This document shows, in pieces, positions 1 through 54,475 of a stretch of DNA of 64,000 bases. Below the pieces are notes generated by a model. It was not told where the DNA came from. It saw only the letters and a list, made by a program, of their open reading frames with translations, and searched no databases. A program made the translations under genes and the position numbers. Every line of letters begins with the position of its first letter. The first letter of the stretch is position 1. The DNA is from Gammaproteobacteria bacterium (GTDB taxonomy: Bacteria; Pseudomonadota; Gammaproteobacteria; Enterobacterales; Neiellaceae), in the NCBI GenBank assembly GCA_017425245.1, contig JAFOOX010000036.1, positions 1 to 64,000 on the forward strand, given 5' to 3'.

Positions 1-258
1 CAGCGCTGCGGCACGCTCGGTGTCCAGCCGCACCACCAGATGGTAGTGGTTGGCCATCACCGCATAAGCGCCTAGGTCGATGGTGAAGATCTCACTCAAT
101 AGCGCCAACCGCTCTAACACCCAAGCCTTACGGTGGCTGTAATCATTGCCAGTCAGGCGGTCTTCACCGCACAGAAACGCCCGCCGCACGCAGCGACAAA
201 CGCAGTGATACCAAGGGGTGGCAGCAGGGCAAACAAGCTCAGAACGGGGGCGGGTCAT
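1..258 (-). CDS. REP-associated tyrosine transposase (RAYT / Y1_Tnp), 3' part outside window
   Basis: Reading leftward from the ATG at 258, 86 codons run off the window edge without a stop. The visible protein begins MTRPRSELVCPAATPWYH and contains VMANHYHLVV, the HUH-type motif (two histidines around a hydrophobic) of the IS200/IS605-like Y1 transposases in the RAYT subfamily. These enzymes process single-stranded REP hairpins and are usually domesticated single-copy genes. The catalytic tyrosine would lie beyond the edge and cannot be checked. The N-terminal 'PWYHCVCRCV' stretch fits the usual RAYT start. REP hairpins occur elsewhere in this window (19122, 51023, 51450, 51590, 54489), so this is a plausible source enzyme, though that link is inference. 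Confidence 0.85.
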   Translation of the reverse strand, partial: MTRPRSELVCPAATPWYHCVCRCVRRAFLCGEDRLTGNDYSHRKAWVLERLALLSEIFTIDLGAYAVMANHYHLVVRLDTERAAAL

Positions 259-303: not shown

Positions 304-410
304 CTGGTTGATTTTTGGCCAGAAAAGATGGATGTCCTTTTAGTTCGCTGGTTGATTTTTGGCCAGAAAAGATGGATGTCCTTTTAGTTCGGCTGCTTTT
401 AGTTCGGCTG
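304..410. repeat. Nested tandem duplications (44 bp x2, then 15 bp x2) at 5' end of hydrolase gene
   Basis: A 44-bp unit at 304-347 is repeated exactly at 348-391. The end of the second copy starts a further exact 15-bp tandem duplication, 381-395 and 396-410 (CTTTTAGTTCGGCTG). Neither 44 nor the total is a multiple of three, so the duplications change the reading frame upstream of the hydrolase. They look like recent slippage or repair products. Confidence 0.9.
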
Positions 411-1085
411 TTCGATGCCAGCCGTAACCGTCAGGTGCCGGTCACCCTGTACTGGCCCGCCAGCCGCGATTGCAGCCCGCACCAGCCTTGCCCGGTGGCA
501 CTGCTGAGTTCCGGCTATGGCGTGGCCCACGATCGCTATGGCTTTATCGCGGCCAGCCTGCAGCAGGCCGGCTATCTGGTGGTGGCGATCCAGCATGAGT
601 TACCCGGCGACCCGCCGCTGGCCACCAGCGGCAAGCTGTTTGAACGCCGCCAGGAGAACTGGCAGCGCGGCGCCCTGACCCTCGCCTTTGTGCGGGCCAC
701 CCTCGCCGACCGCTATCCCGGGTATGACTTCGACCGGCTGACCCTGATCGGCCACTCCAATGGCGGTGACATCTCGGCATGGCTGGCAGCCAGCAACGCG
801 CCTTACATCAGCCGCCTAATCACCCTCGACCATCGCCGGGTGCCGCTGCCACGCAACCCCGCCATCACCATGCTGTCACTGCGCGGCAGCGACTTAGCGC
901 CAGATGCCGGGGTACTGCCCGCCGCCAACGAGCAGCCCGGCCTGCGGCTGTGCGTGGTGCCGATCCGCCACGCCCGCCATAACGACATGACCGATGCAGG
1001 CCCCCGCTGGCTGCAGGCCACCATCGTCACCCGCCTCAGTGGCCATCTGGCCGGGGTGGATTGCGCCCTGCTACGCGGCCTCTAA
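372..1085 (+). CDS. Alpha/beta hydrolase, probably 5'-damaged
   Basis: The 237-residue product is an alpha/beta hydrolase. It has the nucleophile elbow GHSNGG in mid-protein and a late histidine region (RHARHNDMTD) that could supply the catalytic His. The substrate is unknown. Family members normally carry a signal peptide before the 'VRLFDASRNR' strand. Here that region is replaced by repeated MDVLLVRLLLVRLFD sequence made by tandem duplications at 304-410, so the native N-terminus seems lost or rewritten. ATG 372 is used here; TTG 315 would add 19 residues encoded by the duplicated unit. No clear ribosome-binding site precedes either start. The gene may be a pseudogene, or may still make a cytoplasmic protein. 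The body (from about residue 15) is intact, with no internal stop. Confidence 0.65.
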   Translation: MDVLLVRLLLVRLFDASRNRQVPVTLYWPASRDCSPHQPCPVALLSSGYGVAHDRYGFIAASLQQAGYLVVAIQHELPGDPPLATSGKLFERRQENWQRGALTLAFVRATLADRYPGYDFDRLTLIGHSNGGDISAWLAASNAPYISRLITLDHRRVPLPRNPAITMLSLRGSDLAPDAGVLPAANEQPGLRLCVVPIRHARHNDMTDAGPRWLQATIVTRLSGHLAGVDCALLRGL

Positions 1086-1099
1086 CGGCCCGCGTTATG

Positions 1100-1505
1100 C
1101 GGTCCACGCCCCCAATCTGGCGCAGCTGCACTAGCGACAGGCCCACTGCACGGCAGATGCGGCTACGCCGCAGGCATGCCACTGCGTGGCGGCAGAATGC
1201 GAGGCTGACCGCCTCGCGCTGGGGCAGCGTTAATGCCGCTGCGCGGCAGATGCGGCTGCGCCGCTGCAAGCGAGGTTGCCCACCTCGCGCTGGGGCAGAG
1301 GGGCGTATCGCCACGCCCCTCTGCACACCCGGGCGCCCCCAAGTCCACCACCATCAAGATCTGGCTGGTGTTCTGCCGGGCTACGGGGTCGCCACAAAGT
1401 CACATCCCTGTGCCTTAGTGGCTTTCGTCGCCGTCCAGGCGACTCACCCCCTACACCCGACTAACCGTGGGTTGGCTGGCGTGATTGCGGGTGGTGGGCA
1501 AGGGG
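1100..1505 (-). repeat. Structured modular repeat, copy 1
   Basis: Read on the minus strand, this copy starts near 1505 with CCCCTTGCCCACCACCCGC. It has the core hairpin P1 at 1427-1443 (stem GTCGCC/GGCGAC), a second hairpin P3 at 1401-1412 (CACA/TGTG around GGGA) inside a GCCAC/GTGGC stem, then the long hairpin P4 at 1295-1324 (stem of 12 bp, GCAGAGGGGCGT). A tail follows in which GCGAGG-type and GCGGC-type hairpins repeat. It fills the gap between the hydrolase and the ATPase. No credible coding sequence is present. Confidence 0.85.
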
Positions 1506-1519
1506 TACCTTTGTCCCAT

Positions 1520-4144
1520 TCAGCGCCTTTGCAGAACATCAAGCGCGTCATCCAACATGGCGACCGACTTGACGATGGCCCTCACGGTGGCACGGTCGAA
1601 CTCGTGGTCGAGCCGCGAGTCATGCGTCCCCCGGTTGAGATAGCCCCACTCAATGCTGGTGCCGCTCACATTGAGAAGAGCCGTGAGTGCGGCGACCGCC
1701 TGTGGGGCACCATCGTATTGTGCCGCGATCCGGTCGACTGCCGATCGCAACTTGCAGCACTTGTTGTTCAACTCCCAAGGAGAGCGTGGTCCACCCAGCT
1801 TGATGTCGATCCGACCGTCCCCTCGCCGTCCTAACCATGTCCACAGGCGGTCAGTAAGACTTTCCAGTGCAGGCCGGGCATGGCGCAGCGCCTCACGCTT
1901 CTCGTCGGCCGCTAGCGCCTGCTCGGCAAGCAGAACGTAGTTCTTCGTGGGGGGATCACTGTCTACCCGCAGCTCGTGCTCCCCTTGATGCGGTAGGAAC
2001 TTGTAGCGCTTAATGGCACCGACTCGCTTGGCCCCTAACTCCTGTTGGATGCGATGCAGGAACTCCTCTGCGTGCGAGGTAAGAATGACCTGCTTGCCGT
2101 CGAGCCAACCGTCCTCGAAGAATGTGCGCCAGATGCCATCGCGGTGATCGTCGTCAATCGCGTTGACGACGTCATCGAAGATGACCACGGGGCAGCCCTG
2201 TGAGATGTTCTTGGCGAGCAGAATCGCAAGACCCAAGCATTTGATGTGCCCTTCGCTGAAGACGATCAGTGCGTCGTAGCGCACGCCCGGCTCGCTGGAG
2301 AACTCCACCTCGATCTTGCCGTTCTCTGCCACAGGCAACCAAAGCGCGTGCAGCAGATCGCCGGGCGGATCGGCCCGGTTGAATTCGTTGTACAGATCGC
2401 GGGCCAGTTCTCCCAGTCCCTGCAGTAGCACACCCGGCAAAGCTGCTAGATAGGCCTGGATCTCGGGCAAAAAGCCGTCGTATGCGGTCTTGATCCGTTG
2501 ATGGTGGGCCACCACCGGCACTTCGGCCGCGACCGCCTGGATCAGGTAGCTGTTCGCTTCTTCGAACTCGGCCACGGTCTGACTGGCGGCAGCCAGCTCC
2601 TGATCGGCCGTCACACGCATAACCCGCAGCCGTTCGATCTCCAGCTGATGCTGCTGCAGCCGGTCGCGTTCATGGGCCAGCGCACCTCGCTGCGCATGCA
2701 CTTCTCGAGCCTGCGCGTCGAGGCCTTCGATGGTCTCTGCGATCTGCAACAGGGCTTGCCAGGCGCGCCGTTCCCCATCAATCCACTGACCGAGCCAATT
2801 GCCCGCAGCGGTGGGAGGCAGCAGCGGCAGGTCCGCGGCCTGCAGCTCGGCTGGACAGGCGATCTCAGCCGCCGCCACGACACGGCGCATCTCGTCCCAG
2901 AGCGAACGGACAGCTTCGTTCAATTGCGTCCTAAGATTGGCATCTTGCTTTTGAAGGTCAGCCAGTTGCGCGAGCTGCTCCAAGCCGGTTCGTGCTTTGT
3001 CGAACGGGTCTTGGGCCACGGAGGCCAGTCCAGTTCCACAGGCTGGGCAAGCGATCGCACCGTCGGCCAGGGCCAGCACTGCCTCGTAGAGCTTCGCGTA
3101 CGACACTTCGCCGGCACGGGCCGCAAGTTGCGCGGAAGACGCCTGCAACAACTCCTGGAGGCGGTAGGCATCGGCCAGTAATGCCTCCAAGCGGGCCTGG
3201 GTCACCCCGTGAATGCTAGGTGGCGCTGCGTCTAACTGTGCCTGCACATCAGGCAGCCGCCCAATTTGCTGCGGCGTACCGAGCAGCCACTCCACGCAGG
3301 CCTGATAAGTCGCGCCGGGCAGCATGCGCTGCGCCAAGGCTTGCTCCAGGGCTTCGACCGCTGCAACCTTTTGCGGGTGTGCGGCAATGGTCTGCTCGGA
3401 GTTCGCCAACAGAAGGCGGCGCTGCGCTAGCTGCGCCGCCTGGATGCCGGTAAGCATCAGGTCCTGGTCGAGCGAGGGGTTGAAGCCACGCACGAATTCG
3501 CTGAACTGGTCCACGCCGAACAGGGTTGCGATGAGTTGGCGCTGATCACCCGGGGTCCTTGCGGCAATGCGTGCGAAGTCGTCCAGGCGATTCTTCTCGA
3601 TAAAGCAGAAGCGGTACTCGGCTTCGTCGGGCTGGACTACCTGCGCTTCGTCTCCCACCTTGAACGACAGGGCTGGCGCAACATGTCGGCGCAAGCGAGC
3701 GTTGTTGCAATACAGCCGCTGGTCGAGCCGCTTGGCCTGGGCTTCGCTAATCGAACCAAGCATCGCTACTTCCAAGGCCTCGCAGAAGCTGCTTTTGCCG
3801 GTTCCATTGGCTCCGTAGACCAAGGTGATGTCATGGCTGAGGTCGAACGTCTCCTGTCGCATGAACCCGCGAAACGGCCCAACTTCGAGCTGATGAAGCC
3901 TACCAAGTGCCGACCCGGCTTCAGGGCCGCGACCGTCCCCGGCGTACTCGACGGGCATCTGCGCCAGATTATCGATGGTTAGCGGCGCTAAGCGCGTGGA
4001 TCGCCCGCGTCGTGCTGCACCCACCTCGGCCAAAGGCTCTAGGTGGTCAAGCACCAGATTCGCCAGCCGGCGCACATCATCGTGCACCTGCCGCTGCGCT
4101 AGGTGTTCCAAGAAACGGTGGTACTCCGAATGAATGCTTGCCAT
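1520..4144 (-). CDS. Rad50/RecF-like AAA ATPase with zinc-hook CxxC, putative defence protein
   Basis: This 874-residue protein has a split ABC/SMC-type ATPase head. Walker A is GANGTGKS (residues 111-118). A signature-like SEGHIKCLGL lies near 630-640, Walker B is PVVIFDD (652-658), and the switch-like TSHAEE is near 689. Between them are predicted coiled arms of about 250 residues with a CPAC tetrad at 366-369, placed like the zinc hook of Rad50 and RloC. After the head is an extra C-terminal domain (about 710-874) ending with LNRGTHDSRLDHEFDR. Similar tails occur on defence-type SMC-like ATPases, but I cannot assign an enzymatic activity to it. A good ribosome-binding site (GAGGGGTG) precedes ATG 4144. 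The gene stands alone between two inverted repeat copies. A role in phage or DNA defence is inferred from architecture and setting; DNA repair is the alternative. Confidence 0.8.
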   Translation of the reverse strand: MASIHSEYHRFLEHLAQRQVHDDVRRLANLVLDHLEPLAEVGAARRGRSTRLAPLTIDNLAQMPVEYAGDGRGPEAGSALGRLHQLEVGPFRGFMRQETFDLSHDITLVYGANGTGKSSFCEALEVAMLGSISEAQAKRLDQRLYCNNARLRRHVAPALSFKVGDEAQVVQPDEAEYRFCFIEKNRLDDFARIAARTPGDQRQLIATLFGVDQFSEFVRGFNPSLDQDLMLTGIQAAQLAQRRLLLANSEQTIAAHPQKVAAVEALEQALAQRMLPGATYQACVEWLLGTPQQIGRLPDVQAQLDAAPPSIHGVTQARLEALLADAYRLQELLQASSAQLAARAGEVSYAKLYEAVLALADGAIACPACGTGLASVAQDPFDKARTGLEQLAQLADLQKQDANLRTQLNEAVRSLWDEMRRVVAAAEIACPAELQAADLPLLPPTAAGNWLGQWIDGERRAWQALLQIAETIEGLDAQAREVHAQRGALAHERDRLQQHQLEIERLRVMRVTADQELAAASQTVAEFEEANSYLIQAVAAEVPVVAHHQRIKTAYDGFLPEIQAYLAALPGVLLQGLGELARDLYNEFNRADPPGDLLHALWLPVAENGKIEVEFSSEPGVRYDALIVFSEGHIKCLGLAILLAKNISQGCPVVIFDDVVNAIDDDHRDGIWRTFFEDGWLDGKQVILTSHAEEFLHRIQQELGAKRVGAIKRYKFLPHQGEHELRVDSDPPTKNYVLLAEQALAADEKREALRHARPALESLTDRLWTWLGRRGDGRIDIKLGGPRSPWELNNKCCKLRSAVDRIAAQYDGAPQAVAALTALLNVSGTSIEWGYLNRGTHDSRLDHEFDRATVRAIVKSVAMLDDALDVLQRR

Positions 4145-4284: not shown

Positions 4285-4655
4285 GCCTACCTTATAAGCT
4301 GCGCAGTAAATGTGAACGCGTGTCAAATCAGTGCTGCGGCTCGCGCTCCCACCCCGTTTGAGCAGTGGCGGAACCACATCGCAGCCAAACACGGCATTGG
4401 GGCTGGTGGTGGGTCGAGGGGACAGGAAGTCACCGAGAGCGAGCCCGGCACAGGGATGTGCCGTCGAGCGGCCCACCGGCAGCACCGGAACAGGCCACTA
4501 GCATCAATAGCGCTGCTCTACCGGGCCGCCGGTGGGTGCAGGGAGGCCGTGCGGAAACGGCCTTCCTGCTCGTCGTGGAGGGGGCGAAACCCCTCCATCC
4601 GCTGCCACGCAGTGGCAAATCTGCTGCGGCGCATCAGCCAACGCAGCGAGCCTCA
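4285..4655 (+). repeat. Structured modular repeat, copy 2
   Basis: The left end is CCTACCTTATAAG at 4286, shared with copies 5 and 7. A module with GTTTGAGCAGTGGCGG follows. The gamma-type core has GGGGAC-AGGAA-GTCACC (one mismatch in the stem) and a CGGCACA-GGGA-TGTGCCG hairpin. P4 near 4535-4565 has a GCAGGGAGGCCGT stem. P5 is GGAGGGG-GCGA-AACCCCTCC, with a GNRA-type loop. It occupies the space between the ATPase and the lipoprotein gene. Confidence 0.85.
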
Positions 4656-5095: not shown

Positions 5096-5790
5096 TCCCC
5101 CACCCCGTTTGAGCAGCGCCAAGATCACGCAGCAGCCAAACACAGCATCGGGGCTGGTGGTGGGTCGACGCCGAGGACATCCATTCGGAGAACAGCGGCA
5201 GCGCAGTCTTCCGATCACCTCGAGCACCACCCGCACGGCGCTAAGCCTACGCACTGCCAGTCGGCCGTAGGGGTTGAGGCAACAGGACGTTGCCGAAAGC
5301 CACTATGGGCCAGGGACGGCACATTGTGGCGACCCCCTAGGCCGGCAGGACTACAGCCATACATTAATGGTGGTGATCGCGGGGGCCGGCTGGAGGGGTC
5401 GACGCCGAGGACATCCATTCGGAGAACAGCGGCAGCGCAGTCTTCCGATCCCCTCGATCACCACCCGCACGGCGGTAAGCCAACGCTCAACCAGACGGCC
5501 GTAGGGGTTGAGGCAACAGGACGTTGCCGAAAGCCACTATGGGCCAGGGACGGCACATTGTGGCGACCCCGTAGGCCGGCAGGACTACAGCCATACATTA
5601 ATGGTGGTGATCGCGGGGGCCGGCTGGAGGTGCAGGAGGAGGGTCCGGCTACCCTCCTCCTGCCCGTCGCGCGGGGGCGGCACCCCGCATCCGGGCGGCG
5701 CAGCCGCAATCTAGCACCACGCAGTGGCATCCGCGCAGCCCAGCCGCCCCCCAATCTGGCGCAGCTGCACCAGCAACAGGCGCGCTAGAG
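5096..5790 (+). repeat. Structured modular repeat, copy 3, with a 234-bp internal tandem duplication
   Basis: A 234-bp unit (5164-5397) is repeated nearly identically at 5398-5631. Each unit holds a GTCGACGCCGAGGACATCC module, the alpha core P1 (GGCAAC-AGGAC-GTTGCC, first at 5278-5294, second at 5512-5528) and the GCCAC/GTGGC stem. Only the second unit is followed by P4 (GCAGGAGGAGGGT stem, about 5632-5663) and the tail hairpins. The insides differ by only a few bases, so the duplication is recent. Short open frames through it follow the repeat and are not genes. Confidence 0.9.
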
Positions 5791-19169: not shown

Positions 19170-19517
19170 GAACAAGATCCGCCGCTGCGCGGCGGCAGAT
19201 GCCAACTGCGTTGGCGATGCGGGAATGCGGCTGCGCCGCACGGCGTTAAGACAAATCGCTGTGGCGATTTGGGTAAGAGCGCCGACTGGCCGGCGCTGGC
19301 CAGGTAAGGGCCGGACCCGCCCGGCCCTTACCAATCCCGGCGGCCCCCAAGCCCACCACCATCCAGATCTGGCTGATGTTCTGCCGGCCTACGGGGTCGC
19401 CACAATGTGCCCTCCATGGCCCATAGTGGCTCTCGGCAACGTCCTGTTGCCTCGCCCCCTACGCCCGACTGGCCGTGGGTTGACTGGCGTGGGTGCGGGT
19501 GGTGGGCAAGGGGGGAG
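19170..19517 (-). repeat. Structured modular repeat, copy 4
   Basis: On the minus strand it begins near 19517 with CCCCTTGCCCACCACCCGC, as copy 1 does. The alpha core has GGCAAC-AGGAC-GTTGCC, then GCCAC/GTGGC enclosing a GGCCATGGA loop. P4 is the GGTAAGGGCCGG-GCGGGT type. The tail holds an AAATCGC-CACA-GCGATTT hairpin and GCGGC hairpins. It fills the gap between the urea operon and the integron cassettes; the attC at 19566 lies 50 bp beyond its 5' end. Confidence 0.88.
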
Positions 19518-19649: not shown

Positions 19650-21092
19650 TCAACTGGTGCTTAATTCCAGCTCGTTGAATATTTGCATTGGATCTTCGGG
19701 TTGCAACGCCCAGCGATAAGCAGGGTGAACCTCCCAGTCATAGCCGAATTCGGTAAACTTATTTGATAAGTACCGATTCTCCTCGAAATATTTTCGATCA
19801 ATGCCTGCGGGAGTTTGTTTGCGGGCGGTAATAAAATTAATTTTATAAAGAAATGCAGCCAGCTCTTTAGTTTCAACTTGATTTCCATTAGCCCAACGAA
19901 ACTTTCCTTGCTCCTCAATCATCTTAAGCTTTCTCAGAAGTTGATCTGTGCTGTATACATAACCCTGAGATGCTTTTCTTTGTATTTTTGAAGGGCGCAT
20001 ACCAAGTATCAGTTTTTCTACACCAGGCAGTTCCGAACGATATTCATTAATGGTATCTTGAAGCCGTCCCTGCGAATACTCTTCAAAAATCGACTCCAAG
20101 TTGTCAGTGGATATTTTATCTGAATCGTTAGAATGCGCTTTTCTTCCTGCCAAAGTTAGAAGTTTAACCAAATCTCGCGGCCGCTTTCTAATTAGTGACA
20201 TTAGAACCCTATACATAGGCGCATTACTCCAATGCCCTTTTCCAGTGAATCTTTCCTCAATCACGGGAGTTAGATATTTCATCAACTCGGATTGATGCTT
20301 CTTTAGAAGCTCACCCTCATCAATCAGTCTTCCAAAATAACTCTCTACTCTTTTAACAAGAAGAACCAATATTTCATGGTTAGTCCATGAATACCAGATT
20401 ACCGAACTTTCTGTTTTGTCAGTCGATTCATCAGAAGTCCGAGCCAAATAATAAACATCTGATCGCAAACTAATTCTAAAAAATATCCCTCTATTTTCGG
20501 TAGAAATATCCCGTACGGCGTTAAGGAGTGCTGATATTCTCAGAATGTCGTGCTTTCTCCCTTGCCACCCTCGGTCCAAATCATCTATGTACACTGAAAT
20601 ATTTTTGCTCTTGAGAAAGTCCCTCAGCACAGCTTCTTTAGATGCAGTTAGGCTAAGCTTATCGTCAAGCTTTAATGTTGAAGCAAGAAAATCTAAGGCA
20701 GCACCACCGTATTGGTTCAATTTACCTCGCCAGCCATCAAATAACATGCCGAATGAAGTCAACGCTTTTTTTGCGATAATTTCGTTAATGCCTGTCTTCC
20801 AGTCCCTGATAAGCCTTAGAAAATCATCCGTTTCTTCGCCAATGCCAATAATGTCATCAGGCTTAATCAAAAGCGTGAGCCTATTGTTTTCTGCCTCCTC
20901 ATCAATTGCGACCTGAAAAAGAGCTGACTTCCCAATCCCCTTGTGTCCCACGAGTATTCGTAATGGCAGATCATTTACAACCTGCTTATAGGCCTTACTC
21001 TTAAAGTAATACTCTTTAAGCCTTGTGGGATCTTCATCTTCAGCAGCCTCATGGCCAAATAGTTTTTGCAGTTCGTATTCACTAAAATCCAT
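19650..21092 (-). CDS. P-loop ATPase, Sll1717-like, in an integron cassette
   Basis: This 480-residue protein has Walker A GHKGIGKS (49-56) and Walker B SVYIDDLDR (166-174). It is followed by a STAND/KAP-like helical region with charged motifs such as IRKRPRDLVKLL. Its N-terminus (FSEYELQKLFGHEAAEDEDP) fits the Sll1717-type P-loop ATPases often found in defence islands. The actual function is unknown. The gene is strikingly AT-rich beside its GC-rich neighbours and uses A/T-ending codons, a sign of transfer. It is bounded by attC sites at 19566 and 21128, so it is a gene cassette, not part of the urea region. No promoter was found within the cassette. Confidence 0.82.
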   Translation of the reverse strand: MDFSEYELQKLFGHEAAEDEDPTRLKEYYFKSKAYKQVVNDLPLRILVGHKGIGKSALFQVAIDEEAENNRLTLLIKPDDIIGIGEETDDFLRLIRDWKTGINEIIAKKALTSFGMLFDGWRGKLNQYGGAALDFLASTLKLDDKLSLTASKEAVLRDFLKSKNISVYIDDLDRGWQGRKHDILRISALLNAVRDISTENRGIFFRISLRSDVYYLARTSDESTDKTESSVIWYSWTNHEILVLLVKRVESYFGRLIDEGELLKKHQSELMKYLTPVIEERFTGKGHWSNAPMYRVLMSLIRKRPRDLVKLLTLAGRKAHSNDSDKISTDNLESIFEEYSQGRLQDTINEYRSELPGVEKLILGMRPSKIQRKASQGYVYSTDQLLRKLKMIEEQGKFRWANGNQVETKELAAFLYKINFITARKQTPAGIDRKYFEENRYLSNKFTEFGYDWEVHPAYRWALQPEDPMQIFNELELSTS

Positions 21093-21190: not shown

Positions 21191-22591
21191 TCACGCCTCA
21201 AATCTAGAAGCGATTTCAATTTTCTTTAGTAAGTAACCCAAAGAACCAATGCCGCCGTTCCAGTCAAAATCATTGATAATTTCCAATATTCTTTGAGCTC
21301 GTTGTTTTTCTTCTTTGCTTGAGGAATCGGAACCTATTACTTCTTGATATTTATTCGATATTTCATCGTAACTATGGCTGTGTGATTTGCAAGTAACGAT
21401 ATATGCCTCTAGCGCTGTGCCATAATTAGTCAAAAGCAAATCTGTGGCGCCAGGTTGTGTCATAAACCTTTCCAGCAGTTCAAATACATTGATCTCATCA
21501 GAAATCAATTCCTTGTACAAGTCTGGCAATTTGACTTTCAATACAATGAGGAAGCAAAGAAAAAGGGGGAACAGCTTATAGTTTTCAGGTGTTGTTCTGA
21601 TGGAAAGACTAAGAAGTGAACAGCAGTGCTCTTGCTCACGTAGCGTTAAGCTATACAGCTCAAAAAGCTCCGAGAACATCTTTAAAGACTGCTCGCCTTC
21701 GTACTGAACTCCTCCTGCATTCTTCTTTGAAAAATACTCATTAAACGAATATTTCTTGAACAAGGCTTTTACAAAAACCCCTTTGTCCGGAGGAGGGAGA
21801 ATATAATCAAAGTCCATAAATCTTCGCAAGTAGCCGTTTACATTCAGCCCTTCACCATAAATTGCTCTGATAGATGAGCCCAGTTGCTTTTTGTCCGCAC
21901 CAAGAACAAAGACAATGTTGTCTACGTTAAAGAAGTGTTTTGCTTTTTCCAGAATCTCAATTGCAAAGTTTGGCCTGCAGCGATCAAGTTCATCGATAAT
22001 AAAAACCAGTGGTTTAGGGTTGTCTGGGTCGGTTGTACTACTTGCTAGCTGGGATATGGCCTTCCGAAATGACTTTATAGACTTCTTGGAGTTTTCGTAC
22101 CTCTCTATCTGTTCTTTTGCTATCGACTCGGCGAGCCCTGCAAGAGCCTGTTCAGTAACCTTATCGAGATCCAGTGCGCCAGCCGTTGCAATCTTTGCAG
22201 CAACGGGAACTGAGCGTTTTAAAAGTGCAATACCGATATCTTTAGTTTTACCAAGGTATTCTCTAGCTTTCGACTCATCACCGGTTTTTGATAGTTCAGT
22301 TATCGATGCACTTATCTCCCCGATAAGGCATACAAGAGCATCATCAGAAAAATCACTTTCCCAAGCATTGAAGTAGATCGTTGGTACATCGTTATTCTTC
22401 AAATGCTGTTCCCACATCCTAAGGAAAGTGGTTTTTCCTTGTCCCCAAGGAGCATCAATGCAAACAACTACCGAGTCATTTGCAGACAAGACGAACGCTG
22501 TTAAGGCCTCTCCAGTCTCCTTGCGACTCAATGCGTCATTTTTATATGGGTCGTCTTTATTAATTTCAATTTCACGACTTTTTAGTATCAC
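21191..22591 (-). CDS. KAP-family P-loop NTPase in an integron cassette
   Basis: This 466-residue KAP NTPase has Walker A APWGQGKTTF (47-56), Walker B PLVFIIDELDRCRP (194-207), and the family's helical insert between them, including hydrophobic VPVAAKIATAGAL (128-140). KAP proteins are often membrane-linked and occur in antiphage systems, which fits a cassette origin, but this one's function is unknown. GTG 22591 is chosen because GGGAAGAG lies just upstream and the frame beyond it runs through integron-site sequence. AT-rich composition sets it apart from its surroundings. It precedes the second NTPase cassette in the same orientation, so one upstream promoter could serve both. Confidence 0.85.
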   Translation of the reverse strand: MILKSREIEINKDDPYKNDALSRKETGEALTAFVLSANDSVVVCIDAPWGQGKTTFLRMWEQHLKNNDVPTIYFNAWESDFSDDALVCLIGEISASITELSKTGDESKAREYLGKTKDIGIALLKRSVPVAAKIATAGALDLDKVTEQALAGLAESIAKEQIERYENSKKSIKSFRKAISQLASSTTDPDNPKPLVFIIDELDRCRPNFAIEILEKAKHFFNVDNIVFVLGADKKQLGSSIRAIYGEGLNVNGYLRRFMDFDYILPPPDKGVFVKALFKKYSFNEYFSKKNAGGVQYEGEQSLKMFSELFELYSLTLREQEHCCSLLSLSIRTTPENYKLFPLFLCFLIVLKVKLPDLYKELISDEINVFELLERFMTQPGATDLLLTNYGTALEAYIVTCKSHSHSYDEISNKYQEVIGSDSSSKEEKQRAQRILEIINDFDWNGGIGSLGYLLKKIEIASRFEA

Positions 22592-22751
22592 TCGGCTCTT
22601 CCCTTTTACTGCTAACGTTGCCGCCAGCGGCCCGATTGAGTGAAGCCTTTTGGGGTAAAGTGCGAAGCCCCCCAAAAGGCGGAACGAGTGAAGGTCCAGC
22701 GCATGAGCGAAGCAATGCCTAGGACACGCACTCGATACCACGAAAATCAAG

Positions 22752-23115
22752 CCTACCTTATAAGTTTTTCAACAAAATGTGAACACGAGCCAAATCCGGG
22801 CGGCTACTCAATCTGCCACCCCGATTGAGCAGCGGCGAAACCACACCGCAGCAGGCCACGGCATCGGGGCTGGTGGTGGGTCGAGGTGACAGGAAGTCAC
22901 CGAGAGCGAGCCCGGCACAGGGAAGTGCCGTCGAGCGGCACGCCAGCAGCACCGGAACAGGCCATAGGTATCAATAACGCTGCTCTACCGGGCCGGCTGG
23001 TGGTGCAGGAGGAGGGTCCGGCTACCCTCCTCCTGCTCGTCGCGCGGGCGCGAAAGCCCGCATCCGGGCGGCGCAGCCGCAATCTGCCGCGCCGCAGGCG
23101 CATGTCGCCAGTCCT
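22752..23115 (+). repeat. Structured modular repeat, copy 5
   Basis: The left end is CCTACCTTATAAG. The gamma core pairs perfectly (GGTGAC-AGGAA-GTCACC) and continues into CGGCAC-AGGGAA-GTGCCG. P4 is the GCAGGAGGAGGGT type near 23003-23035, as in copy 3. P5 is GCGGGC-GCGAAA-GCCCGC. No gene is visible from the KAP start to 23893. Confidence 0.87.
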
Positions 23116-23184
23116 TACCCGGCCAGCGCCGGCCGGTCGGCGCTCTTATCAATTCGCCACGCGATTTGTCTTAGCTGCGGCGCA

Positions 23185-23515
23185 GCCGCAATCCCCCTAC
23201 CCGTTTGAGCAGCGGCGAAACCACACCACAGCAGGCCACGGCATCGGGGCTGGTGGTGGGTCGAGGGGACAGGAGGTCACCGAGAGCGAGCCCGGCACAT
23301 GGATGTGCCGTCGAGCGGCCCAGCAGCAGCACCGGAACAGGCCACAAATCTGGATAGCGCTGCTCTACCGGGCCGCCGGGATTGGTAAGGGCCGGGCGGG
23401 TCCGGCCCTTGCCCGGCCTGCGCCGGCCGGTCGGCGCTCTTATCAAATCGCCAAGCGATTTGTCTTAGCTGCGGCGCAGCCGCAATCTGCCGCCACGCAG
23501 TGGCATCCGGCGGCG
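23185..23515 (+). repeat. Structured modular repeat, copy 6
   Basis: It lacks the CCTACCTTATAAG end and starts with the CCGTTTGAGCAGCGGCG module. The gamma core has one stem mismatch (GGGGAC-AGGAG-GTCACC) and a CACATGGATGTG hairpin. P4 is the GGTAAGGGCCGG-GCGGGT type and the tail has AAATCGC-CAA-GCGATTT. It follows copy 5 in the same direction after a 70-bp linker. Confidence 0.85.
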
Positions 23516-23524
23516 CAGCCGCAA

Positions 23525-23630
23525 TCCCCAACCCATTTGAGCAGCGGCGAAACCACACCGCAGCGGGCCACGGCATCGGGGCTGGCCGTGGGTTGGCTAG
23601 CGTGAGTGCGGGTGGTGAGCAAGCGGTGGG
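23525..23630. repeat. Chimeric repeat fragment (6b)
   Basis: The first half (23525-23585) is the plus-oriented GTTTGAGCAGCGGCG module. At 23586 it switches to CCGTGGGTTGGC and the rest of the inner end of a minus-oriented copy, like 1465-1505 and 19473-19512. The core and P4 are missing. It looks like a recombination junction between two copies. From about 23631 to 23893 I see only unassigned sequence with no convincing gene. Confidence 0.75.
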
Positions 23631-26109: not shown

Positions 26110-26780
26110 TTACCTTACAAGCCGCACAACAAAATGTGAACACGCGCCAAATCCGAGCTGCGGCGCAGTCTCCCACCCCGTTTGAGCAGCGGCGAAACCA
26201 CACCGCAGCAGGCCACGGCTTTCCAAGGACAGCCCCCCCAAAGCCACGGCCGCAGTCTAACCCACCCAGCGACTCAAGAATGCAGCAGCCTTTCACATTC
26301 CCCAAATCGGACATAGCACGAACGCGGTTGTCCACTTTACAACCAGCGGCAGTGCCGTCTTCCCACACCCGTTTGAGCGCCAGCGCAATCACCTAGCCGC
26401 AAGCACTGCCTGCGCGCGGGGTTGCGGGCGAGGCAACAGGACGTTGCCGAGAGCCACTAAGGCACAGGGAAGTGACTTTGTGGCGACCGCAAACCAGTGC
26501 GGAGTAACCAACAACGCCAAACGCTGGCGCTCTACCGGACCGCCGGGATTGGTAAGGGCCGGGCGGGTCCGGCCCTTACCCGGCCTGCGCCGGCCGGTCG
26601 GCGCTCTCACCAAATCGCTTCGCGATTTGTCTTAATGCTCATTCACCGTGAAACGGAGGTTAAGGCCTGCCCGTCGTGGAGGGGGCGGAACCCCTCCATC
26701 TGCTACCACGCAGTGGCATCTGCTGCAGCTACGCACCAGAGTGGCCGTCGCCAAGTCCCTGATCGGCCAGTCGATGAAAT
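26110..26780 (+). repeat. Structured modular repeat, copy 7
   Basis: The left end CTTACCTTACAAG resembles copies 2 and 5. It is longer because a 130-bp unrelated stretch (about 26220-26345) separates the GTTTGAGCAGCGG module from a second GTTTGAGCGCCAG module and the alpha core (GGCAAC-AGGAC-GTTGCC at 26432-26448). P3 is CAC-AGGGA-AGTG. P4 is the GGTAAGGGCCGG-GCGGGT type. The tail has AAATCGC-TTC-GCGATTT and a GGAGGGG-GCGG-AACCCCTCC hairpin. Confidence 0.85.
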
Positions 26781-51169: not shown

Positions 51170-51425
51170 CCGCAGTAGAGCGAGGTTGCCCACCTCGCGC
51201 TGGGGCAGAGGGGCGTAGCGCCACGCCCCTCTGCACACCCGGGCGCCCCCAGCGATCACCACTAACGGGCGTTGGTGGTTGTTCTGCCGGCCTGCGGGAT
51301 CGCCACAAAGGCACCTCCCTGTGCCTTAGTGGCTTTCGGCAACATCCTGTTGCCTCAACCCCTACGGTCGACTGGCCGTGCGTTGTTGTACCCCGTGCTC
51401 GTGGTGATCGAGGGGTGGGGCAGAC
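51170..51425 (-). repeat. Structured modular repeat, copy 8
   Basis: On the minus strand it starts with CCCCTCGATCACCAC near 51422. The alpha core has a compensated loop variant (GGCAAC-AGGAT-GTTGCC) and P3 GGCAC-AGGGA-GGTGCC, a pairing not seen in the other copies. P4 at 51207-51237 is the GCAGAGGGGCGT type of copy 1, followed by GCGAGGT-GGGC-AACCTCGC. Confidence 0.87.
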
Positions 51426-52298: not shown

Positions 52299-52646
52299 GT
52301 GGCAACCGATATGCCCAAGGTACGCATTCAAGAGGCGGCCTCTTGGCGGCTGGACGAGATCTACCGCTACACGCGCGAGCACTGGGGTGAGCAGCAGGCG
52401 CAGCGCTATATTACGGGCCTGTTTGCCGCCTTTGAACGCATCGACAGCCATGGCGTGGCATCCAAGCCCGTGCCCGCCGAGTTTGGTGTCGAGGGCTACT
52501 TCTTCCGCTATGAACATCACATCGTCTATTGGAAACGTCTGGCCAACGGCGATCTGGGCATAGTGACCATCCTGCACGAACGCATGCACCAGATCGGGCG
52601 CTTTAAGTCTGAGTTTTTTGGCGAACAGCCGTCGTCGGAGACGTGA
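52299..52646 (+). CDS. parE: ParE-type toxin (RelE/ParE superfamily)
   Basis: This protein has 115 residues from GTG 52299; ATG 52311 is the alternative start and gives 111. The RelE/ParE fold is shown by EAASWRLDEIYRYTREHWG, by GYFFRYEHHIVYWKR and by the terminal ILHERMHQIGRF, with the conserved arginines in place. ParE toxins poison DNA gyrase, while close relatives cut mRNA; the target here is unknown. It is coupled to the antitoxin gene and followed directly by the tail of repeat copy 10. Confidence 0.9.
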   Translation: MATDMPKVRIQEAASWRLDEIYRYTREHWGEQQAQRYITGLFAAFERIDSHGVASKPVPAEFGVEGYFFRYEHHIVYWKRLANGDLGIVTILHERMHQIGRFKSEFFGEQPSSET

Positions 52647-52664
52647 CCATCTGCCTGCTTGCCG

Positions 52665-53039
52665 CTACCCCCCCGGGCAGCAGACGTAATGCGGCTGCGG
52701 CGCAGACGCAGCAATGCCAACGGCTGTTGGCCGAAGCGCCTGCGGCGCTGGCTGTTGATTTGCCGCTGCGCGGCGGATTCGCCTGCGGCGCCAAGAGTGG
52801 GCTGTCGCGCCCACACGACGAGCTAAGGGAGGGTCGCCGAACCCTCCCTTGGCGAACCCTGTCGGCCCCCAAAGAGCACCACCATCAATATCTGGTTGAC
52901 GTTCTGCCGGGCTACGGGGTCGCCACAATGTGCCATCCATGGCCCATAGTGGCTCTCGGCAACGTCCTGTTGCCTCGCCCCCTTCACCCGACTGGCCGTG
53001 CGTCGGCTTAGCGCCGCGCGGGTGGCGATCAAGGGGGAA
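52665..53039 (-). repeat. Structured modular repeat, copy 10
   Basis: On the minus strand it starts CCCCCTTGATCGCCACCCGC near 53036. The outer stem pairs CCCCCTT with AAGGGGG. The alpha core has GGCAAC-AGGAC-GTTGCC, then GCCAC/GTGGC. P4 is unique (AAGGGAGGGT-TCGGCG-ACCCTCCCTT). P5 is GTGGGC-GCGACA-GCCCAC. The tail holds GGCGCCGCAGGCG-type hairpins up to the parE stop. Confidence 0.87.
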
Positions 53040-53112: not shown

Positions 53113-54132
53113 ATGGCAATGAACAAACAGTCCGCATATGTTGGCGTGGATGTGGCGTGCGCGGTCGGTAAGCACCTGCCGATTAGTATCGTCATTCGCG
53201 AACTAAACCAAATTAGCCCTCTACCACTCCGGCAACTGCCTTTCGCCCCTCCCAAAGGCTGCGGTAACGTTGGGGTAATTGAAGACAAGCATACTCAGGT
53301 TTTCGCACAAGAAGCACGCGAGTATGTCGTTCGAGCTTGCCAGCATGTCGGCTTGATACCGGCGCGTATTGGCATCGACGCCCCTCTCAGGCCCAGGATT
53401 GCGTCGATCACAAGACGCCATGCAGAAGCGGCCCTTGATCGTAAAGGCATCAGTGCGTTTACCACACCATCACGCGCGGATTTTGAGCAGATCCAAATCA
53501 AAGTACGGGCTCACCTTGCCCAAGGGGGACGACCTGATCGCCTTCCTCACGGCCATCAATTGTGGATGCTGGCTGGCTTTGCTATCGCTGATTGCCTGTC
53601 AGTGGTAGCGCCCTGCATTGAGGTGTACCCGCAAGCCACAATCCGCGTCTTAGGTGGCGGTGCACGCCACAAAACGCGCTCAGGAGCAGTAGCGGAGCAG
53701 CTATCGCTGGTTGCACACCAAACTGGTTTTCCACGTACCGAGGATGATTGGCAGTTGTTTTACCAAATCGCTCATGGACCGGCTCATGACCGTCTGGATG
53801 CATATATTTCTGCGTGGGTGGCCAGCCTTGATGAGCACGAACGGATCGGCTTTGGTACTGTCCCGGACGACGTGATCTGGGTGCCTCGAATCACCAGTGC
53901 GGCATCTTCTGCACCATCACCACCGTCATCGATGACCAGACCAGTCAAGCCGGCCGGGACGACGGGCGGCGATCACGCCATGACCTGCCCAGCTTGCAGC
54001 CATGAATTTAAGCGCTGGCCGTTTGGTTGGGATGCGCATGCCGCTTACCGCTGCCCCGGCCTGCCCCAGTCCCTAACGCCCGAAGAGCGCAAAGCGATCT
54101 ACCGGCAACGCTACAGCCAGTATTTCAAGTAG
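53113..54132 (+). CDS. DUF429 protein with C-terminal zinc-finger-like segment
   Basis: The 339-residue product opens with YVGVDVACAVGKHLPI and later has RIGIDAPLRP and CIEVYPQATIR, the acidic strands of DUF429, a predicted RNase H-like nuclease family. Its biological role is not established. After a Ser/Pro-rich linker (about 262-285) comes MTCPACSHEFKRWPFGWDAH and YRCPG, a putative C2HC zinc finger, in the same frame. Start ATG 53113 or 53119; neither has a strong ribosome-binding site. It is the sole gene between two inverted repeat copies (10 and 11), their 5' ends facing it, so it is a candidate cargo or partner of the element. Confidence 0.72.
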   Translation: MAMNKQSAYVGVDVACAVGKHLPISIVIRELNQISPLPLRQLPFAPPKGCGNVGVIEDKHTQVFAQEAREYVVRACQHVGLIPARIGIDAPLRPRIASITRRHAEAALDRKGISAFTTPSRADFEQIQIKVRAHLAQGGRPDRLPHGHQLWMLAGFAIADCLSVVAPCIEVYPQATIRVLGGGARHKTRSGAVAEQLSLVAHQTGFPRTEDDWQLFYQIAHGPAHDRLDAYISAWVASLDEHERIGFGTVPDDVIWVPRITSAASSAPSPPSSMTRPVKPAGTTGGDHAMTCPACSHEFKRWPFGWDAHAAYRCPGLPQSLTPEERKAIYRQRYSQYFK

Positions 54133-54184: not shown

Positions 54185-54475
54185 ACACCCCTTGATCACC
54201 ACCCGCACGGCGCTAGCCGACGCACGGTCTGCCGGGTGAAGGGGTTGAGTCGCCTGGACGGCGACGAAAGCCACTATGGGCCAGGGATGGCACATTGTGG
54301 CGACCCCGTAGCCCGGCAGAACATCAGTCAGGTATTGATGGTGGTGATCTTAGCCCGCCGGAGAGTGCAGGGAGGCCGTGCGGAAACGGCCTTCCTGCTC
54401 GTCGCGCGGGGGCGAAACCCCGCTCCGCTGCGGCGCAGCCGCATCCCGCACCGCAGGTGCATCCGCCCACCCGCT
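54185..54475 (+). repeat. Structured modular repeat, copy 11
   Basis: The left end is CACCCCTTGATCACCACCCGC, pairing with GGTGAAGGGGTTG. The beta core has GTCGCC-TGGAC-GGCGAC as in copy 1, but P3 is GCCA-GGGA-TGGC. P4 is the GCAGGGAGGCCGT type of copy 2. P5 is GCGGGG-GCGAA-ACCCCGC. Confidence 0.88.

Follow-up and report, generated by a model that had tools for sequence, protein, structure and literature searches.

A dispersed TwoAYGGAY-like folded element with a fixed orientation towards cargo genes in a gammaproteobacterial genome

The known family nearest to the element described here is TwoAYGGAY (RF01731; Weinberg 2010), an orphan RNA motif since 2010. The two share a junction with two GGA hairpins and gammaproteobacterial hosts, and the element scores at the border of the family; it differs in that P1, one of its two hairpins, has a 5-nt loop in the copies studied, which fall just under the family cut-off. 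The text consulted on the motif mentions neither a high copy number, nor tail hairpins, nor the bracketing of cargo. Binding of CsrA to TwoAYGGAY has been predicted by Gardner and Eldai (PMC4333381). Duss et al. described ANGGAX presented on a stem as the high-affinity form of Rsm/CsrA sites, and two of the RsmZ stem-loops lack the N (PMC4005645). The CsrA-sequestering RNAs of the CsrB/RsmZ type are similar to the element in carrying GGA in stem loops, RsmZ having both the ANGGAX hexaloop and an N-less pentaloop. However, each copy of the element offers two sites, the copies are scattered and number in the dozens, they are polar with respect to cargo, and we could see no promoter. REP/BIME sequences with their RAYT transposases are likewise short, dispersed, intergenic and hairpin-forming, but the element is 175 nt long, has a multi-branched head, encloses cargo between inverted copies and shows no link to a transposase. 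Finally, integron cassettes with attC combine a folded site with small adaptive genes, as the islands described below do, whereas the islands lack attC boxes and are inverted and scattered. Nothing relevant to cargo islands with hairpin ends was found in the open-licence literature.

The window, that is, the whole stretch of DNA analysed, is 64,000 nt long (positions 1 to 64,000 of contig JAFOOX010000036.1) and comes from an assembly of 3.45 Mb in 74 contigs that is 89% complete. Each unit of the element consists of a head, made up of an outer stem, an inner stem and a junction with two GGA-loop hairpins (P1 and P3, in a folded element of about 175 nt), followed downstream by a tail of one long and one short hairpin. 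Most other genomes display the same head-tail plan with different sequences. There are 11 copies in the window, the number given by an earlier sequence-only reading, and they are listed here with the hairpins of copy 1 and one remnant.

1295-1324, minus strand: first 3'-tail hairpin of copy 1 (GCAGAGGGGCG..CGCCCCTCTGC)
1321-1505, minus strand: element copy 1, subfamily 1, including the outer stem
1391-1422, minus strand: P3 hairpin of copy 1, loop C-AGGGAT-G
1427-1443, minus strand: P1 hairpin of copy 1, GTCGCC-TGGAC-GGCGAC
4351-4528, plus strand: element copy, subfamily 2, one P1 mismatch
5210-5396, plus strand: element copy, subfamily 1, first half of a 234-bp tandem duplication
5444-5650, plus strand: element copy, subfamily 1
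19335-19513, minus strand: subfamily 1 copy that bounds the next island on the left
22818-23000, plus strand: subfamily 2 copy with GGTGAC-AGGAA-GTCACC, paired in inverted orientation with 19335-19513
23200-23375, plus strand: element copy, subfamily 2, one P1 mismatch
23537-23627, no strand assigned: chimeric remnant, the 5' part of subfamily 2 joined to an inverted 5' part of subfamily 1
26355-26540, plus strand: element copy, hybrid of both subfamilies
51231-51415, minus strand: element copy, subfamily 1
52863-53036, minus strand: subfamily 1 copy, the one in the window that scores highest against RF01731 (42.8 bits)
54188-54349, plus strand: subfamily 1 copy, paired in inverted orientation with 52863-53036

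The P1 string of copy 1 lies where the sequence-only reading had placed it. The other strings that it quoted were also found, namely GGCAAC-AGGAC-GTTGCC, GGTGAC-AGGAA-GTCACC at about 22883 and the one-mismatch form GGGGAC/GTCACC near 4430 and 23263; its copies 2, 5 and 6 belong to subfamily 2. The core pattern GAAAGCCACNA..GGGA..TGTGGCGACC has four matches, with 0.00 expected by chance. A DNA search of the whole assembly combined with the RF01731 matches gives at least 87 copies in the genome. Subfamily 1 accounts for 42 good copies in the assembly and subfamily 2 for about 32. Many copies lie at contig ends, as is usual for repeats in a draft assembly.

The fold is conserved. An RNAalifold consensus of 43 copies, which represent the main subfamily and all come from the same genome, has the outer stem, the inner stem and the junction with P1 and P3. 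In these copies 98.4% of 1671 cells pair, as compared with 89.9% after shuffling and 29-57% when the partners are slid, and not a single cell is broken in P1 or P3. Twelve pairs are altered on both sides by the count on the named structure in the 43 copies. The earlier reading had proposed that P1 and P3 change in a compensatory way, and that uncompensated changes as frequent as compensated ones would speak against this; that is not what is seen, since 128 cells have changed on both sides and about 27 are unpaired. However, P1 has only two alleles in the genome (25 and 18 copies), P3 has essentially two, and both are swapped as blocks and reshuffled with the five types of 3' tail. In subfamily 1, 16 of the 20 possible combinations of P1 allele, P3 allele and tail type were seen, and because the three reassort freely, blocks are exchanged between copies. 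The covariation within the genome therefore amounts to a few events counted repeatedly, so the copies quoted in that reading are weaker evidence than they seemed.

The independent support for covariation is the comparison across genera, which is a stronger test than that within the genome. In 32 cores drawn from several genera, both sides have changed in 17 of the 19 pairs and the covariation score is 0.817, against 0.203 for shuffled sequences, although these cores were chosen partly by a stem criterion (at least four pairs around GGA) that favours pairing near the loop; the criterion did not extend to the outer pairs of P3. Across the groups 97.9% of the P1 cells pair despite differing stem sequences, and GGA is kept in the loop. 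The outer stem is compensated too (GATC/GATC, GCTC/GAGC, GCCC/GGGC). Compensatory change in P1 and P3 thus stands on the cross-genus covariation, which together with the kept A-N-GGA-N loops and the compensated outer stem also bears out the earlier suggestion that a fold rather than a protein is under constraint, whereas RNA as the folded molecule is a prediction. The GGA strand has 47 G-U cells and 6 A-C cells, or only 11 and 5 by distinct column, in copies that are related to each other; this excess of G-U would favour the GGA strand as the folded one. Folding energy does not favour that strand, and the opposite strand folds slightly better on average. As a separate observation, the copies at five loci in genus g7 (L046, L050, L058, L064 and L070) have long, near-perfect outer stems of sequence unrelated from copy to copy, as if the arms had been templated or acquired independently.

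The fixed orientation of this dispersed element towards foreign cargo is a more informative property than the hairpin alone. Neighbouring inverted pairs no more than 6 kb apart in the window genome are arranged heads-in in 15 cases and tails-in in one (p = 0.0005), or 13 and one after removal of pairs less than 400 bp apart. Other genomes, including the single-contig G112 and the two-contig G139, have 15 heads-in pairs and no tails-in pair (p = 6e-5). The copies in a cluster follow the order minus, minus, cargo, plus, plus. The DNA on the head side has an average GC content of 53.7% and that on the tail side 62.2% (p = 5e-7). The GC is usually lowest in the central intervals (mostly 0.43-0.55), intermediate in the outer ones and about 0.62-0.70 in the flanks. 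Head-in pairs more than 6 kb apart contain ordinary genes. Runs of copies in the same orientation also occur, and a simple two-ended unit does not account for them.

The cargo in the window includes the following genes.

1520-4144, minus strand: SMC/AAA ATPase of 874 aa, between the inverted copies 1321-1505 (minus) and 4351-4528 (plus)
19650-21092, minus strand: protein of 480 aa with no PADLOC or Pfam match, in an interval with a GC of 0.43
21191-22750, minus strand: KAP NTPase, candidate defence family PDC-S20 (8e-167)
52302-52647, plus strand: ParE-family toxin (type II toxin-antitoxin module)
53113-54132, plus strand: DUF429 protein, between inverted copies

Elsewhere in this genome the cargo includes DUF6119, HEPN, AHH nucleases, DUF5677, DUF4145, PDC-S60 and PDC-S31, and in genus g15 it includes NsnA, PDC-S49, PDC-M11A, M11B, PDC-M01A/PtuA, PDC-S31 (twice) and RTasSLATT. 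In the first g15 batch, seven of 10 cargo proteins but one of 10 flanking genes had a match at E<1e-20 (Fisher 0.02), a threshold picked after the data were seen. Most of the proteins in later cargo batches had no match, and most of the scanned cargo proteins of the window genome had none in PADLOC. Because of the post hoc threshold and these later batches, the enrichment of the cargo in anti-phage functions is only suggestive. At L308 (G000:C1:1-9000), an integron integrase gene (656-1594, 382 bits) and an AT-rich stretch lie inside a heads-in element pair, at about 380-500 (minus) and 5304-5468 (plus).

The explanation that we favour, and consider fairly probable, is that the folded TwoAYGGAY-like elements are the ends of non-autonomous, cargo-carrying mobile units that are inserted downstream of gene ends. 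The dispersed element would then be mobile and would mark the outward-facing ends of non-autonomous islands. These islands would lie next to terminators or the 3' ends of genes, and their cargo would be foreign genes, in many cases anti-phage ones. Presumably a head-in pair provides both ends of one mobile unit, or its exchange sites, and an enzyme supplied in trans would move or exchange the units; no recombinase turned up among the cargo proteins scanned. The inverted, head-inward pairs around foreign genes supply a genomic context for TwoAYGGAY, and the motif would no longer be read as an ordinary small RNA. The element ends also offer a way to locate small defence islands, and two questions become testable, namely, what moves the units and whether CsrA acts on them.

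A simpler rival is that the orientation is a by-product of an insertion rule. If elements insert downstream of genes with the tail towards the gene 3' end, convergent intergenic regions would end up with heads-in pairs, and the cargo could be exchanged separately and independently by homologous recombination. Of 41 genes on the tail side, 30 do point the opposite way (p = 0.004), a rough figure because the gene calls are simple ORF scoring. Furthermore, insertions lie directly past terminators and some are single elements without cargo. The rule nevertheless does not predict the same-orientation runs within one island, and the cargo genes often turn their 3' ends to the head instead of the tail (1520-4144, 19650-21092 and 53113-54132 in the window). 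We regard it as possible, but rather unlikely, that this rule is the full explanation.

The assignment to a family is borderline. No match to the window element was found in Rfam at the gathering threshold; the 42.8 bits of the best window copy fall short of the RF01731 cut-off of 43. A genome of the same genus scores 47.3 bits, and among 296 genomes of the order there are 65 with an RF01731 match above the cut-off. Genomes of the same genus and order are multi-copy, often with at least nine scored candidates per genome, and there is no match in 14 control genomes. Since the window copies are below the cut-off though their relatives pass it, we call them TwoAYGGAY-like and not members. As in that family, their two hairpins lie side by side and share a closing stem. 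Plasmid and phage DNA searched with the element gave no match. A pattern scan of named genomes found a sole true relative, Corallincola sp. MAG Go_UH_bin_55; the other matches look like chance by an Rfam spot check of ten loci.

The loops are where CsrA would enter. In the aligned copies P3 always has an ANGGAN hexaloop, and the loop of P1 has five bases, AGGAY or TGGAY. The 51 cores compared from other genera were required to have a C-G pair closing the GGA loop; A is the first base in 78 of their 80 hexaloops. Judged by sequence, the ANGGAN loops fit CsrA/Rsm sites. P3 agrees with A(N)GGAX, P1 allele a agrees without the N and P1 allele b (TGGAC), which is present in 18 of the 43 copies including the one at 1427-1443, does not. 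The host genome has one csrA (C47:203580-203735), and CsrA is present in 39 of 40 relatives, so its presence discriminates little. These data bear on another explanation, that the elements titrate CsrA, like a distributed CsrB, as scattered small RNAs that stand alone or as parts of 3' UTRs, and that their adjacency to cargo is incidental because elements and defence genes alike accumulate in permissive intergenic sites. The stem-borne hexaloops of the high-affinity form (PMC4005645), the published prediction for TwoAYGGAY (PMC4333381) and the near-universal CsrA of the relatives would all agree with it. It leaves the head-in rule, the GC polarity and the conserved tail hairpins unexplained, however, and the TGGAC allele is off the motif. 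Neither a promoter nor a terminator signature was seen; the search around copy 1 yielded nothing resembling a sigma-70 promoter. We would give titration a real chance, but would not bet on it. If the elements are the ends of mobile units, the head may be kept because something reads its folded strand, most probably a CsrA/Rsm-type protein acting on RNA or, alternatively, a recombinase acting on single-stranded DNA. We only tentatively suggest that such units form a previously undescribed gammaproteobacterial class with inverted TwoAYGGAY-type ends, a largely anti-phage and toxin cargo and CsrA reading the ends as RNA.

Sites and cargo have turned over in relatives of the window genome. For example, one intergenic site in genus g11, between the same two flanking genes, is empty in G206, holds the element in G236 and G299 and holds it inverted in G185 and G294. 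In genus g15 a site just past the terminator of an operon that we take, from ORF order and not from a family search, to be that of rplI has head-in ends in both G112 and G208, where the flanks are 93-96% identical and the cargo differs. Other g15 species read into other DNA at this site, with no element in the approximately 270 bases examined. These cases of presence and absence come from sister-genus relatives and not from the window copies themselves. In the comparison with a fragmented genome of the same genus only one locus was informative; at this locus, presumably fabV to judge from its sequence, the window genome is longer by 1.7 kb, and element tails border the additional DNA. No target-site duplication or base-exact junction could be defined at the orthologous sites compared.

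If the elements were of the REP/BIME type, the enzyme would be a RAYT-like Y1 transposase that works on hairpins in single-stranded DNA, and hairpin ends would suit it. A RAYT-like fragment lies at the contig end (window 1-258, minus strand), and its homologue, with 51% identity, interrupts an element tail in G208 (L255); because Pfam does not recognise these fragments, the RAYT label, given from motifs, is presumptive. The distribution over 40 genomes does not support the link, since transposase and element do not co-occur (6/12 vs 9/28, p = 0.31); G028 has 37 transposases and no element, and G001 has elements and no transposase. We consider this origin improbable. Still less credible is the reading of the element as an integron attC site and of the islands as scattered cassettes. 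The islands do hold cassette-like genes (toxin-antitoxin and defence), and an integron integrase is above the cut-off in the window genome and in five of nine others searched. However, the box pairs RYYYAAC..GTTRRRY occur in one of 52 copies, with 0.5 expected, and so the attC reading is not supported; the element-bearing G236 has no integrase above the cut-off, and inverted pairs are unlike cassette arrays.

The surroundings of the copies display some further patterns. There are tandem duplications of 234 bp at 5162-5629 of the window, with one element inside, and of 44 bp at 304-391. The motif GGACAyCCA lies about 28-106 nt upstream of seven of 52 heads (e.g., at 5175-5183 of the window), and a motif resembling it is present ahead of heads in genus g15. 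The tails extend into arrays of small palindromes (e.g., at 4590-4640, 5700-5760 and 23050-23200 of the window) that have a loop of the CGCAG type and differ in their complementary arms (TGCCACGCAGTGGCA, TGCCAACGCAGTTGGCA and TGCGGCGCAGCCGCA). Lastly, three replicons of Betaproteobacteria (L176, L177 and L178, from Variovorax, Caballeronia and Paraburkholderia) have a tail-like hairpin, TTTCTTTGCTTACTTTCTTT..AAAGAAAGTGAG, which follows what appear by eye to be other large inverted-repeat heads.
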